DNA of 64,000 nucleotides. Origin: Methanocella arvoryzae MRE50 (GTDB lineage: Archaea; Halobacteriota; Methanocellia; Methanocellales; Methanocellaceae). Position 1 is the first letter of the stretch, and every line of letters starts with the position of its first letter. A program made the position numbers and the translations under genes. Positions 24,546-44,029 of the stretch are shown here, piece by piece. Where the stretch lies: the NCBI RefSeq assembly GCF_000063445.1, contig NC_009464.1, positions 1,488,001 to 1,552,000 on the forward strand. The letters run 5' to 3'. A model generated the notes under the pieces. It had not been told where the DNA came from, made no database searches, and saw only the letters and a program-made list of their open reading frames with translations.

Positions 24546-24811
24546 GAATTAAAACCGAGGCCTCCCGGGGCCGAGCCAGTTCAATTTTTCGTACCCCCTG
24601 CTTGAAAACCCCTCAATAGCGACCGGGTCCATCCGAGGAATGGCGCATCGTCAGTACCATTGAACTATTGTCTGGCGCTTATTCTCTTACTGCAATTGCA
24701 TAATAAGTAGAAAACATATTTATTTCCAAATTTTCAATATTTGATTAATTTGAGCATAAAAAATTGCTCGGGTCCTGTGAGCAGGTAGTGGGGGGAATCG
24801 GAGACTACGTC

Positions 24812-25153
24812 ATGGGCTTTGATTTACGCCCCAGATTCGGGGCTAAAGCGCTAATAGTAGGCATTATCTGCGGGATTGCAGGCGTACTGGTAGATATCGA
24901 TCACATTCCACTTTACATCTTCAACATGAGGATAGGGCCGGTGTTCCTGATCCCCGGGTTCTTCGACGGGCCGAGGTTCGCGGGTGTGGGAAGATCCTTG
25001 CACGCGCTGGTGCTTTACCTCAGCCTCGCGACGTCTACAGTGATCGCCGGGCTGCTGCTGCAGTACAGCATCAGAAGTACCGTAAAGGCGACTGCGAAGA
25101 GCGCGGTCAGGTTTATCCAGAAGGCCGTCGGCCGGGCGCCGGCGGCGGAGTGA
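24812..25153 (+). CDS. Small membrane protein with DUF457/YdjM-type motifs 2 and 3 (partner A')
   Basis: 113 residues from ATG 24812 (a TTG at 24764 would add 16). Two or three membrane segments with AGVLVDIDHIP (Asp28, Asp30, His31) and GVGRSLH (Arg61, His64). These correspond to the second and third metal-ligand motifs of DUF457/YdjM-type membrane hydrolases (PDxxD and RxxxH), but the first and last motifs are absent. It is clearly homologous to the frame at 31720-32016. The next gene, 18 bp downstream, supplies the missing motifs. I infer that the two act as a complex. Substrate unknown. Confidence 0.75.
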   Translation: MGFDLRPRFGAKALIVGIICGIAGVLVDIDHIPLYIFNMRIGPVFLIPGFFDGPRFAGVGRSLHALVLYLSLATSTVIAGLLLQYSIRSTVKATAKSAVRFIQKAVGRAPAAE

Positions 25154-25171: not shown

Positions 25172-25438
25172 ATGATGGCAGTGACGCTGGAGTACATCCT
25201 GATGTGCGAACTGGGGCATTTCCTCCTCGCCTTCGTCTCGGGGCTGGCGACGTGGCTGCTGATAACGGCGGCCTATAACTGGCTGTATTCCACAGTGCAG
25301 CTAACCCAGACAGACACCAGCCCGGGCCCGGTCACCCGGGCCATCATGAGCCATTCGGGGACTCTGATCCTGCTGATGGCCGTGTCTGTGGGCGTGTTAT
25401 CGCATGTGCTGGAAGATTACTACTTCAGCATTGTGTAA
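25172..25438 (+). CDS. Small membrane protein with DUF457/YdjM-type motifs 1 and 4 (partner B')
   Basis: 88 residues with an AGAGGT ribosome-binding site in front. Membrane segment one carries CELGHFL (Glu13, His16). The last segment ends in SHVLED (His78, Glu81, Asp82). The full-length relative at 25787 has GH near its start and HQVED in the equivalent late place. The sequence is collinear with, and the same length as, the frame at 31727-31993, sharing ExxHFL, an LTQT stretch and SHVLED. It lies directly behind A', which has the complementary motifs. Confidence 0.75.
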   Translation: MMAVTLEYILMCELGHFLLAFVSGLATWLLITAAYNWLYSTVQLTQTDTSPGPVTRAIMSHSGTLILLMAVSVGVLSHVLEDYYFSIV

Positions 25439-25448
25439 ACGTAGACAA

Positions 25449-25675
25449 CGCGGTCGACGGAGGTTTTTCGGGCTTGTCCGGCATCAGCCGGATGCGGAGG
25501 CGGCAGGGCAATGGACGCCTACGAAGTGGCGTCGCTTAGGGCTTGCGAAGGAGGGTCGACTGGCGCAGCCGAAGGCGCAGCCAGGTCGTACCTCCGAGGG
25601 TGCGAGCCCGGCCCTGACGTAGGAGCACCCGAAAAACCGTAGTAGGCCGACCATCAGGTCGGCCGTCGACCCGCG
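25449..25675 (+). repeat. Structured GC-rich element S1 (candidate non-coding RNA)
   Basis: One of four copies in the window. Outer stem GCGGTCGACG with CGTCGACCCGC. Second stem GGTTTTTCGGG with CCCGAAAAACC. Internal hairpins CCGGC-ATCA-GCCGG, GACGCC-TACGAAG-TGGCGTC and GGAGG...CTGGC...GCCAG...CCTCC. A 3' hairpin GGCCGACC-ATCA-GGTCGGCC. It starts 11 bp after the stop of B'. The 25404-25622 open frame through it is not conserved as protein. Confidence 0.75.
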
Positions 25676-25786: not shown

Positions 25787-26353
25787 ATGTTATTCTTCGG
25801 CCACATCGGGCTCACTCTGCTGGTCGTCTTCCTCGTCGCCCTCGCTCTTAAGATCGGCGTAGACTACCGGCTCGTCATCGTAGGCTCCCTGTTGCCGGAC
25901 ATCATCGACAAGCCCCTCGGCGAGTATATCTTCCACAGCGTGTTCAACAATGGCCGCATCTTCAGCCATACGCTGCTCTTCATCGCCGTCCTGGCCATTA
26001 TAGCCCTGCTCGTCGCCCGGAAGTACAGGTACTGGGGCGTCGGAGTCCTGACAGTCAGCGCTGCCTTTCACCAGGTGGAGGACCAGATGTGGAACGCTGC
26101 AGGGACCTGGTTCTGGCCGCTGTTCGGGTGGGGCTTCCCCGAGTACGAGAGGGGAGATTACATCCTCTACCTCCTGAACAACCTGATCTCAAGGCCAGAC
26201 GTGTTCCTCCCCGAGATCGCCGGGCTCCTCGCCCTGGGCTGGTTCGTCCTCAGGTTTAAGCTCTACAAGCCGGAGAATGCCAGAGCATTTGTTTTAACTG
26301 GAAGACTGCCGATGCCGGTTTCTGTTAAGCCCGTTGTGATGGTAAAACAGTAA
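25787..26353 (+). CDS. Single-chain DUF457/YdjM-family membrane protein (predicted metal-dependent hydrolase)
   Basis: 188 residues with four or five membrane segments. All four family motifs are present in order: GHIG at the N-terminus (His6), GSLLPDIIDKP (Asp38, Asp41), GRIFSH (Arg57, His61) and FHQVED (His95, Glu98, Asp99). The family (LexA-regulated YdjM and archaeal relatives) is annotated as membrane-bound metal-dependent hydrolase, but the reaction is largely uncharacterised. A 70-residue tail holds a further membrane segment. No ribosome-binding site is visible. It lies downstream of the two-part version A'/B' and shows which motifs each half carries. Confidence 0.8.
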   Translation: MLFFGHIGLTLLVVFLVALALKIGVDYRLVIVGSLLPDIIDKPLGEYIFHSVFNNGRIFSHTLLFIAVLAIIALLVARKYRYWGVGVLTVSAAFHQVEDQMWNAAGTWFWPLFGWGFPEYERGDYILYLLNNLISRPDVFLPEIAGLLALGWFVLRFKLYKPENARAFVLTGRLPMPVSVKPVVMVKQ

Positions 26354-31322: not shown

Positions 31323-31719
31323 GGCGTGGCCTCTTTTTGATCGGCTGCTGTAGTAAGGCAGCCAGTGAAACCAAATATAATAAAACAAATATATATAATA
31401 TGACAGGAAATTTATCCGATAAAATGGCGTGCCCCTGATCGTTGAGCCAATAATTTGTCTTAAAATACGAATAAACAACGAATGACGGCGACGTGAAGCA
31501 TTAAAGCTCTGGCCCCGGCATTACACGGGCATAACCCGCTGAAAGCCGCTATTATCGACGCTTAGTTTAAAATCCCTGTGCGCGAGATTAACTATTGCTT
31601 CTGAAGCGGCTCGAGTTTCGACTCCACCATTGGCGGGCGGCGCTTTGCCGCCCCCATCCCCATTTAACTGGCATTGAGTTTTCTGGGATTTCTTAGGTTA
31701 TTGACGGTAAGGCAGGAAT

Positions 31720-32016
31720 ATGGCGTATGATCGATTCGATGACAGTCTTCTTAATCCTTTCAAGCGAGGCGGCTCACTTCCTTTTTGGATCCTTCTCTGC
31801 CTTGGCGGCGGGGTTGCCGGCGTACTGGTTGACGCAGACCACATTCCGGACTGGATCCTCGGATACTCCCCGGACTTCTACCCGGTCAACGTCCTTGGCT
31901 TTGGCTATGGCCGCCATCTCCATTCTGCTTTTTTCCTGGTCGGCCTCGGTGGTCTCGCATGTGCTGGAGGACTTCTTCTTGTCAGTATTCTGATGGCCAG
32001 GGTAAAGCTGAAGTAG
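31720..32016 (+). CDS. Small DUF457/YdjM-motif membrane protein A, outer frame of an overlapping pair
   Basis: 98 residues, start ATG 31720 with AAGGCAGGA just before it. Carries AGVLVDADHIP (Asp38, Asp40, His41) and GYGRHLHSA (Arg65, His68), then AGGLLL, matching the gene at 24812 in motif order and spacing (AGVLVDxDHIP, GxGRxLH, AGLLL). It completely contains the +1 frame at 31727-31993, itself homologous to the neighbour of that other gene. Both proteins appear to be encoded by the same DNA. Expected role: half of a membrane metal-site protein. Confidence 0.72.
   Translation: MAYDRFDDSLLNPFKRGGSLPFWILLCLGGGVAGVLVDADHIPDWILGYSPDFYPVNVLGFGYGRHLHSAFFLVGLGGLACAGGLLLVSILMARVKLK
31727..31993 (+). 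CDS. Small DUF457/YdjM-motif membrane protein B, nested in the +1 frame of A
   Basis: 88 residues, ATG 31727, seven bases after the A start; a second ATG lies at 31739. It contains SSEAAHFLFG (Glu14, His17) near the start and SVVSHVLEDFF (His78, Glu81, Asp82) at the end. It is the same length as the separate gene at 25172-25438 and matches it collinearly, with His78-Glu81-Asp82 at identical positions and an LTQT stretch in the middle. It has no stop over 88 codons in a frame that a shadow would be unlikely to keep with these motifs. Confidence 0.7.
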   Translation: MIDSMTVFLILSSEAAHFLFGSFSALAAGLPAYWLTQTTFRTGSSDTPRTSTRSTSLALAMAAISILLFSWSASVVSHVLEDFFLSVF

Positions 32017-40754: not shown

Positions 40755-40983
40755 GCGGTCGACGGAGGTTTTTCGGGTCTGCCCGGAGCGAAGCGGAGGG
40801 ATGCGGAGGCGGCAGGGTAATGGACGCCTACGAAGTGGCGTCGCTTAGGGCTTGCGAAGGAGGTTTGACTGGCGCTGCCGAAGGCGCAGCCAGGTCGTAC
40901 CTCCGGGGGTGCGAGCCCGGCCCTGACGGCACAGCACCCGAAAAACCGTAGTAGGACGCCCATCAGGGCGGCCGTCGACCCGC
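40755..40983 (+). repeat. Structured GC-rich element S2 (candidate non-coding RNA)
   Basis: Second copy, very close to S1 in its 3' two thirds. The 5' hairpin differs (CCCGGAGCGAAGCGGAGGG in place of CCGGC-ATCA-GCCGG), and the 3' hairpin is GCCC-ATCA-GGGC, keeping the pairing with different bases. It lies between the ribbon-helix-helix gene and the COG1395 regulator. The open frames across it are not genes. Confidence 0.75.
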
Positions 40984-43547: not shown

Positions 43548-43776
43548 CGCGGGTCGACGGCCGACCTGATGGTCGGCCTACTACGGTTTTTCGGGTGCTA
43601 CGCCGTCAGGGCCGGACTCGCACCCTCGCAACGAAAACCCGGCAGGCGCTACGCCGCCGCCGGTTTACGTTGCTTCGCAAGTCCTAAGCACCGCCGCCTA
43701 CGGCAGGCGGTCATTGCCCTGCCGCCTCCGCATCCGGCTGATGCCGGACAAGCCCGAAAAACCTTCGTCGACCGCG
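43548..43776 (-). repeat. Structured GC-rich element S3, reverse orientation (candidate non-coding RNA)
   Basis: Read on the minus strand it has the same outer and second stems as S1. It differs most in the internal arm: GCAACG pairs with CGTTGC where S1 has GGAGG with CCTCC, CCGGC/GCCGG replaces CTGGC/GCCAG, and ACCGCC/GGCGGT replaces GACGCC/GGCGTC. Each arm changed on both sides, so pairing is kept. It starts 110 bp after tiaS and lies head to tail-inverted with S4. Confidence 0.75.
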
Positions 43777-43801: not shown

Positions 43802-44029
43802 GCGGTCGGCGAGGCGTTTCGGGTCTGCCCGGAGCGAAGCGGAGGGATGCGGAGATGGCCGGGTAATGGACGACTGCCGAAGGCGGTGTCGCTTAGCGCT
43901 TGCGAAGGAGGTTCGACTGGCGCAGCCGAAGGCGCAGCCAGGTCGTACCGACGAGGGTGCGAGCGCGGCCCGGACATCGGAGCACCCGAAACGACGAGTA
44001 GCCCGCCGTCAGGCGGGCGTCGACCCGCG
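43802..44029 (+). repeat. Structured GC-rich element S4 (candidate non-coding RNA)
   Basis: Fourth copy. The second stem is CGTTTCGGG with CCCGAAACG where the others have GGTTTTTCGGG with CCCGAAAAACC, and the 3' hairpin is GCCCGCC-GTCA-GGCGGGC. A broken repeat of its 3' end (GGGCGTCGACCCGCGAGG) follows at 44056-44073. The gap between tiaS and the CBS gene (43438-44166) is filled by S3, S4 and this remnant. Confidence 0.75.

Follow-up and report, generated by a model that had tools for sequence, protein, structure and literature searches.

Two overlapping frames and their separate relatives

The window (the whole 64-kb stretch of DNA analysed here, a piece of a 3,179,916-base single-contig genome) carries two open reading frames (ORFs) on the same DNA of the plus strand. 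Frame A (31720-32016) encodes 98 amino acids, with two predicted transmembrane (TM) helices and the motifs DxDH and GRxxH. Frame B (31727-31993) encodes 88 amino acids, also with two predicted TM helices, and the motifs ExxH and HVLED. As originally predicted, the overlap is complete: B lies at +1 relative to A and is wholly nested in it on the same strand. The two ATG codons are offset by 7 nt, and a purine-rich, Shine-Dalgarno-like stretch (AAGGCAGG, 31709-31716, plus strand; function inferred) lies 5' of both.

The predicted helices share DNA as well. The first helix of B (31739-31795, plus strand, a 19-residue hydropathy peak) overlaps the first helix of A (31774-31830, plus strand), and the second helix of A (31936-31992, plus strand) overlaps both the second helix of B (31898-31954, plus strand) and the C-terminus of B. 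Four plus-strand sites encode residues that are invariant in the family: B His17 (31775-31777), the D, D and H of A Asp38-x-Asp40-His41 (31831-31842), the G, R and H of A Gly64-Arg65-x-x-His68 (31909-31923), and the H and D of B His78-x-x-x-Asp82 (31958-31972).

Some 6.5 kb away, A and B each have a single-coded paralogue on the plus strand, and these two form a tandem of normal genes, each with its own start and stop. The A paralogue (24812-25153) has nine stops in its B frame, and its ORF may be lengthened as far as a TTG at 24764; the B paralogue (25172-25438) follows directly downstream. Both relationships, which had been proposed from shared motifs, are significant in BLASTP alignments (A: 38% over 74 aa, E=3e-8; B: 36% over 88 aa, E=2e-11), and the overlap of two frames with separate paralogues is confirmed as an observation. 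The motifs quoted in support fare unevenly: LTQT falls in different alignment columns and AGLLL is only loosely conserved. His78-Glu81-Asp82 is present in both B copies of the window; of these three residues, H78 and D82 never vary across the family, while position 81 is A in G243 and N in G321.

An ordinary full-length YdjM gene (25787-26353, plus strand; PF04307, 70.1 bits, E=2.1e-19), used below as a reference, adjoins the tandem pair directly downstream; its nearest local relatives are in G001 and G003 (44-55% identity), and its association with the tandem pair may be due to chance. Just after the pair also lies a copy of a dispersed repeat of ~210 bp (25440-25660). This repeat has 20 matches in the genome of the window (~15 of them near full length, with 75-89% identity) and three further copies in the window, at ~40755-40967 and as an inverted pair (43563-43776 and 43802-44013); it looks like a small non-coding mobile repeat.

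Distribution of the overlapping pair

Including the window, six loci carry the double frame (the others are G003:C10, G001:C1, G164:C63, G243:C292 and G321:C467). The five further genomes represent two other genera of Methanocellia and, with G164, G243 and G321, three genomes of a different family and class, which were added by profile searches of ~345 and 394 genomes of the phylum. In G003:C10, the tandem proteins used as queries for A and for B both match the same DNA, and in G001 the match to A falls in a locus with both ORFs open. B occupies the A+1 phase and both frames are open at all six loci; the stretch shared by A and B spans ~250-375 bp, and both frames are conserved over ~75-110 codons. 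The original prediction would have been refuted by relatives keeping only one of the frames open, and the five other genomes, in which both frames are open and similar, do not meet this condition.

There is also a copy of A alone (G003:C5; L008 1423-1722), with eight stops in the B frame and no recognisable B nearby. It is possibly a former dual gene that lost one frame, and its existence suggests that A may function by itself or with a partner B from another locus. Near this copy are genes resembling a DUF354-like glycosyltransferase and a sugar-nucleotide dehydrogenase (names read from sequence).

Searches beyond these loci returned little. G002, from the same genus as the window, has neither A nor B. 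Outside the six genomes with dual loci, only weak false positives for B appeared when as many as 394 genomes of the phylum were searched by profile, and six-frame reading of the weak matches in G232, G364, G271, G367, G079, G092, G340, G341 and G344 revealed no dual gene. Scans of IMG/VR with the Methanocellia alignments and with single viral B proteins found no relative, and the A/B pair is absent from those IMG/VR contigs that carry relatives of the neighbouring tail genes. INPHARED gave no match, PLSDB one weak partial match, and genome_contigs a single match, to an Alteromonas contig, covering 22 query residues. We found no published description of the pair in a literature search that could not reach most subscription journals.

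Evidence that both frames code

We evaluated each frame by holding the protein of the other fixed, permuting its synonymous codons 1,500 times, and scoring the free frame with a leave-one-out profile that omitted the locus under test. When A is fixed, the B scores of the six loci range from 30.8 to 52.6 bits and the null means from 2.9 to 10.2 (z 4.0 to 13.8), and a single permuted sequence across the six loci reached the observed score of B (at most 1 of 1,500). The reciprocal test gives z values of 3.3 to 7.4 for A, with at most 2 of 1,500 permutations reaching the observed score. In the window itself, B scores 52.6 bits against a null of 5.2 +/- 3.9 (z=12.2) and A scores 50.7 against 13.9 +/- 7.6 (z=4.9), and none of the 1,500 permutations reaches the observed value in either direction. 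Permuting A leaves B open in fractions of only 0.14, 0.015, 0.013, 0.009, 0.005 and 0.059 at the six loci. Among the controls, the third frame gives z values of at most 1.1, and the loci with A only have 8-9 stops in the B frame and z values of at most 1.4. The unused frame of each single-coded copy likewise holds no significant trace of a lost partner (z 1.0-1.4).

Codon positions provide a further line of evidence. Identity in the A frame at positions 1, 2 and 3 is 0.43, 0.54 and 0.45 when dual loci are compared with one another, versus 0.41, 0.51 and 0.27 when dual loci are compared with single-coded copies. As the wobble position of A is the second codon position of B, these third-position values mean that the wobble of A is conserved only where B is encoded. 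The dual loci are homologous, and part of the similarity seen in the permutation test could thus be inherited. Given the single-coded controls and the pairwise amino-acid identity of A (23-41%), inheritance appears a poor explanation for it.

Could only one of the two frames be a gene? If A alone were, B would be a shadow frame held open and similar by the constraint on A, an idea that gains some plausibility from the tendency of membrane segments to remain hydrophobic after a frameshift (PMC7084103). It is nevertheless highly improbable: B stands alone as a gene at 25172-25438, synonymous permutation of A destroys the B score at all six loci, the A-only copies contain 8-9 stops in the B frame, and conservation of third codon positions in A is limited to the dual loci. 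The converse, with B the gene and A its shadow, draws on the fact that shuffles with B fixed keep A open in 17-71% of cases and yield moderate scores with the A profile by default. We can give it very little credence either, since A stands alone as a gene at 24812-25153 and in G003:C5, and at every locus scores above nearly all shuffles (at most 2 of 1,500 reach it). Both shadow-frame explanations were rejected on the two-way codon permutation, the third-frame control and the single-coded controls.

We therefore regard dual coding, that is, a conserved same-strand overlapping pair of genes, as very probable, with the reservation that translation of both frames is inferred from sequence comparison and that no expression data exist. 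The fully nested coding claimed in the original prediction is supported by the five other genomes and by codon permutation, although expression of the two products has not been shown. The similarity of B does not drop to chance after codon shuffling, an outcome that would have refuted the prediction, and the codon-constraint test that it proposed finds each frame constrained beyond the demands of the other (permutation in both directions, controls and codon positions).

A probable division of one domain between two chains

YdjM (DUF457, PF04307) is an inner-membrane putative metal-dependent hydrolase; to our knowledge, the activity of the family is only predicted. None of the four proteins of the window (A, B and the two paralogues) has any Pfam match, and when 14 A and B proteins were scanned alone, PF04307 reached at most 14.3 bits, below its gathering score of 29. 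The weak signals in single proteins of relatives fall at profile positions ~30-94 for A and ~64-112 for B. Read together, A and B present the core motifs H, DxD, H and HxxxD in YdjM order: B supplies helix 1 (H) and helix 4 (HxxxD) of the YdjM core, and A supplies helix 2, which ends in DxDH, and helix 3, which starts at GRxxH. The invariant residues of the family are D, D, H, G, R and H in A, and H, H and D in B, and the invariant columns of a composite alignment accordingly read H, D, D, H, G, R, H, H, D. Helices 1 and 2 partly share DNA in two frames, as do helices 3 and 4.

To score this arrangement, we joined B-helix 1, A and B-helix 4 into composites in the order 1-2-3-4, choosing the junctions by hand. 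The G243 composite matches PF04307 with 32.0 bits (E=1.1e-7), above the cutoff of 29, and is the only one of seven to do so; G164 (24.5), the window (20.4), G003 (18.3), G321 (18.1) and the tandem pair (13.6) remain below it, and the untrimmed G001 composite has no YdjM match. The same G243 pieces in other orders score 13.8, 16.1 and 19.4 bits, and a simple A-then-B order scores 9.3 bits for both G164 and G321. These values depend on the junctions: for the window, a composite with longer junctions gave no score at all, and the 20.4 bits were reached after the junctions had been tightened. In hhalign comparisons with twelve local YdjM proteins, the probability is 92% for the composite, 39% for B alone and 2% for A alone.

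The composite matches start at about position 5 of the PF04307 profile and stop at 107-112, whereas local YdjM proteins reach further; the C-terminal third of the profile (~113-176) is missing from the A/B composites. Two AlphaFold2 runs on a read-through fusion of the tandem pair produced two helices per protein and no confident packing (pLDDT 69 and 68, pTM 0.46 and 0.40), and a Foldseek search with the first fusion model returned no match. Because the junctions were chosen by hand and the C-terminal third of YdjM is absent, we treat the division of one YdjM-type membrane domain into complementary, interleaved pieces as likely, a strong inference that remains unproven, and for the same reasons we file neither A nor B as a member of the YdjM family.

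Genomic context

The short contigs of G164, G243 and G321 are virus-like. The G164 pair, on a contig of 6.7 kb, directly follows a gene whose product contains a prophage tail domain (PF06605, E=2.3e-11); the G321 pair adjoins a tail-like gene. The G243 pair overlaps the end of a resolvase gene, and the same contig encodes PCNA. We also note that the G164 contig (L043, G164:C63) encodes, besides the dual gene, a tail-endopeptidase domain protein of prophage type and, on the opposite strand, a Cas4-like/PD-(D/E)XK nuclease. Neither the virus-like contexts nor the split-domain likeness formed part of the original prediction.

The dual copies of Methanocellia are chromosomal, with differing neighbours and surroundings that are not prophage-like. 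Several Methanocellia copies have genes of sugar-nucleotide, glycosyltransferase-like or ABC-exporter type close by (identified by reading the sequences). No neighbour is common to all loci, which suits a self-contained unit. The region around the G001 dual gene (L047, G001:C1:853000-872000) includes two transposase-like genes within ~6 kb upstream, and after the dual gene comes an ABC exporter in the form of two ORFs (303 and 317 aa), as though a frameshift had broken it.

One chain, two unrelated proteins, or a shared domain

Two further explanations accept that both frames are translated. The motifs lie on the DNA in YdjM order (B-H, A-DxDH, A-GRxxH, B-HxxxD), and two programmed frameshifts, from B to A and back to B, might restore a single YdjM-like polypeptide from a broken gene. 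The spacing of the motifs argues against this: B-H and A-D are separated by 14.7-18.7 codons, as compared with 32 residues in the YdjM protein of 25787-26353, and A-H and B-H by 12.3-16.3 codons, as compared with 34 residues. As these intervals are too short for the two membrane crossings that each would have to accommodate, a single frameshifted chain is rejected and two products are needed. Such a chain would also require two shifts in opposite directions at six loci, and the tandem copy, in which A and B are complete genes that each start and stop independently, likewise points to two products. We find the idea scarcely credible. The spacing between frames is quantised, with 37 or 49 nt from A-GRxxH to B-HxxxD and 44, 47 or 56 nt from B-H to A-D.

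Alternatively, dual coding might be real and the two small membrane proteins unrelated to each other (a holin with its partner, say, or a two-part lysis unit), their likeness to YdjM being merely a generic one of helices and histidines. In tailed phages, lysis genes often lie near tail genes; the G164 pair follows a tail gene immediately, and the G321 pair neighbours a tail-like one. The single proteins score only below threshold for YdjM, and lambda Rz/Rz1 is a known lysis pair in embedded +1 frames (PMC6139136). On the other hand, the invariant D, D, H, R and H of A and the H and D of B are typical of a metal site and would not be needed by a holin, and a clear gain in YdjM score appears only in the interleaved order (32.0 versus 13.8-19.4 bits for G243). 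No endolysin was identified next to the pairs, and the chromosomal copies lie outside prophage-like surroundings. Two unrelated proteins are thus unlikely, without being dismissed. As to a holin in particular, the positions next to tail genes in G164 and G321 leave the possibility standing, and the A and B proteins match no holin family above cutoff.

Proposed mechanism and history

At the six loci, the distance from one start codon to the other is 2 to 14 nt, and both follow a purine-rich, Shine-Dalgarno-like stretch. In G164 the start region reads ATGTG, with B on the ATG and A on the GTG; in G243 and G321 the first canonical start of one frame lies inside the Shine-Dalgarno sequence, and the true start is uncertain. 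Under the reading that we prefer, two chains sharing one domain, a single mRNA with one Shine-Dalgarno region and two close start codons would give rise to both chains, and their joint translation would keep A and B balanced and close in space (both steps are inferred, in the absence of expression data). It would take the pairing of A with B in the membrane to bring the conserved H, DxDH, GRxxH and HxxxD residues together. The resulting complex would be a small membrane-embedded metal-binding enzyme of YdjM/DUF457 type, of untested activity, presumably acting on lipid- or envelope-linked substrates; its assignment as a hydrolase rests only on the predicted function of YdjM itself. The pair would be carried by tailed archaeal viruses or proviruses, and it is also resident in Methanocellia chromosomes, in some cases close to envelope-sugar genes. 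It might play a part in viral lysis or in changing the envelope, although there are no functional data. We put the probability of this explanation as a whole (overlapping pair, split YdjM-type domain and inferred enzyme complex) at roughly 0.7. The tolerance of hydrophobicity to frameshifts may have made the overlap of helices feasible.

It had also been suggested that an ancestral overlapping pair duplicated and then separated. The distribution fits this order of events, as dual copies occur in two classes and single copies only in Methanocellia. It remains unproven: trees of A, of B and of both together (~160 columns) are unresolved, so the direction from overlap to tandem rests on distribution only. 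With more reserve than for the split itself, we lean towards a history in which one membrane-enzyme domain was cut into interlocking chains (1+4 and 2+3) on shared DNA, in viruses and chromosomes, and was later resolved in one genome into tandem genes. If this is true, genes can be organised in a way not seen before, and a natural resolution of gene overlap can be observed directly.

We know of few long conserved same-strand overlaps that have been proven outside viruses, and gene callers normally suppress them. Here constraint acts on A and on B, the genome of the window holds a single-coded relative of each, and the two seemingly belong to one domain. The system thus serves as a natural test case for the origin of overlapping coding, its persistence and its undoing by duplication. 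Should the split hold, two interlocking chains, with helices encoded on shared DNA, can make up one membrane domain, and such interlocking storage of one domain in two frames would be very unusual. The pair further suggests the existence of a new small gene in tailed viruses of archaea.

Comparison with known systems

In overprinting, one of the frames is new and usually unrelated to known proteins. A and B resemble overprinted genes in that two proteins occupy one stretch of DNA under mutual constraint, but they differ in that both frames carry motifs of the same known domain. With YdjM (PF04307) they share the motif order H, DxD(H), (GR)xxH, HxxxD on four helices. Unlike in YdjM, this core is divided over two chains (1+4 and 2+3) in overlapping frames, the C-terminal third is lacking, and neither chain alone exceeds the PF04307 threshold.

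The start region of G164 recalls the AUGUG/GUGUG sites of E. coli, which are reported to initiate in both frames at a ratio set by Shine-Dalgarno spacing (PMC9841429); in each case adjacent start codons in two frames lie behind one Shine-Dalgarno sequence. The E. coli work concerns competition between start codons, whereas in the A/B pair both frames encode conserved proteins over ~75-110 codons.

A parallel in layout is lambda Rz/Rz1: a single viral gene gives two membrane-associated, complex-forming proteins from frames that overlap at +1, and separated architectures also exist (PMC6139136). A and B share the embedded +1 frames and the membrane location of both products. Spanins, however, combine a coiled-coil inner-membrane protein with a lipoprotein, while A and B have two TM helices each and resemble one enzyme domain: the window proteins show two hydropathy peaks each, rather than a single TM segment, and the A/B sequences contain no N-terminal lipobox. 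Moreover, a survey of spanins found no family with both embedded and separated members (PMC6139136), whereas the A/B family mixes the two.
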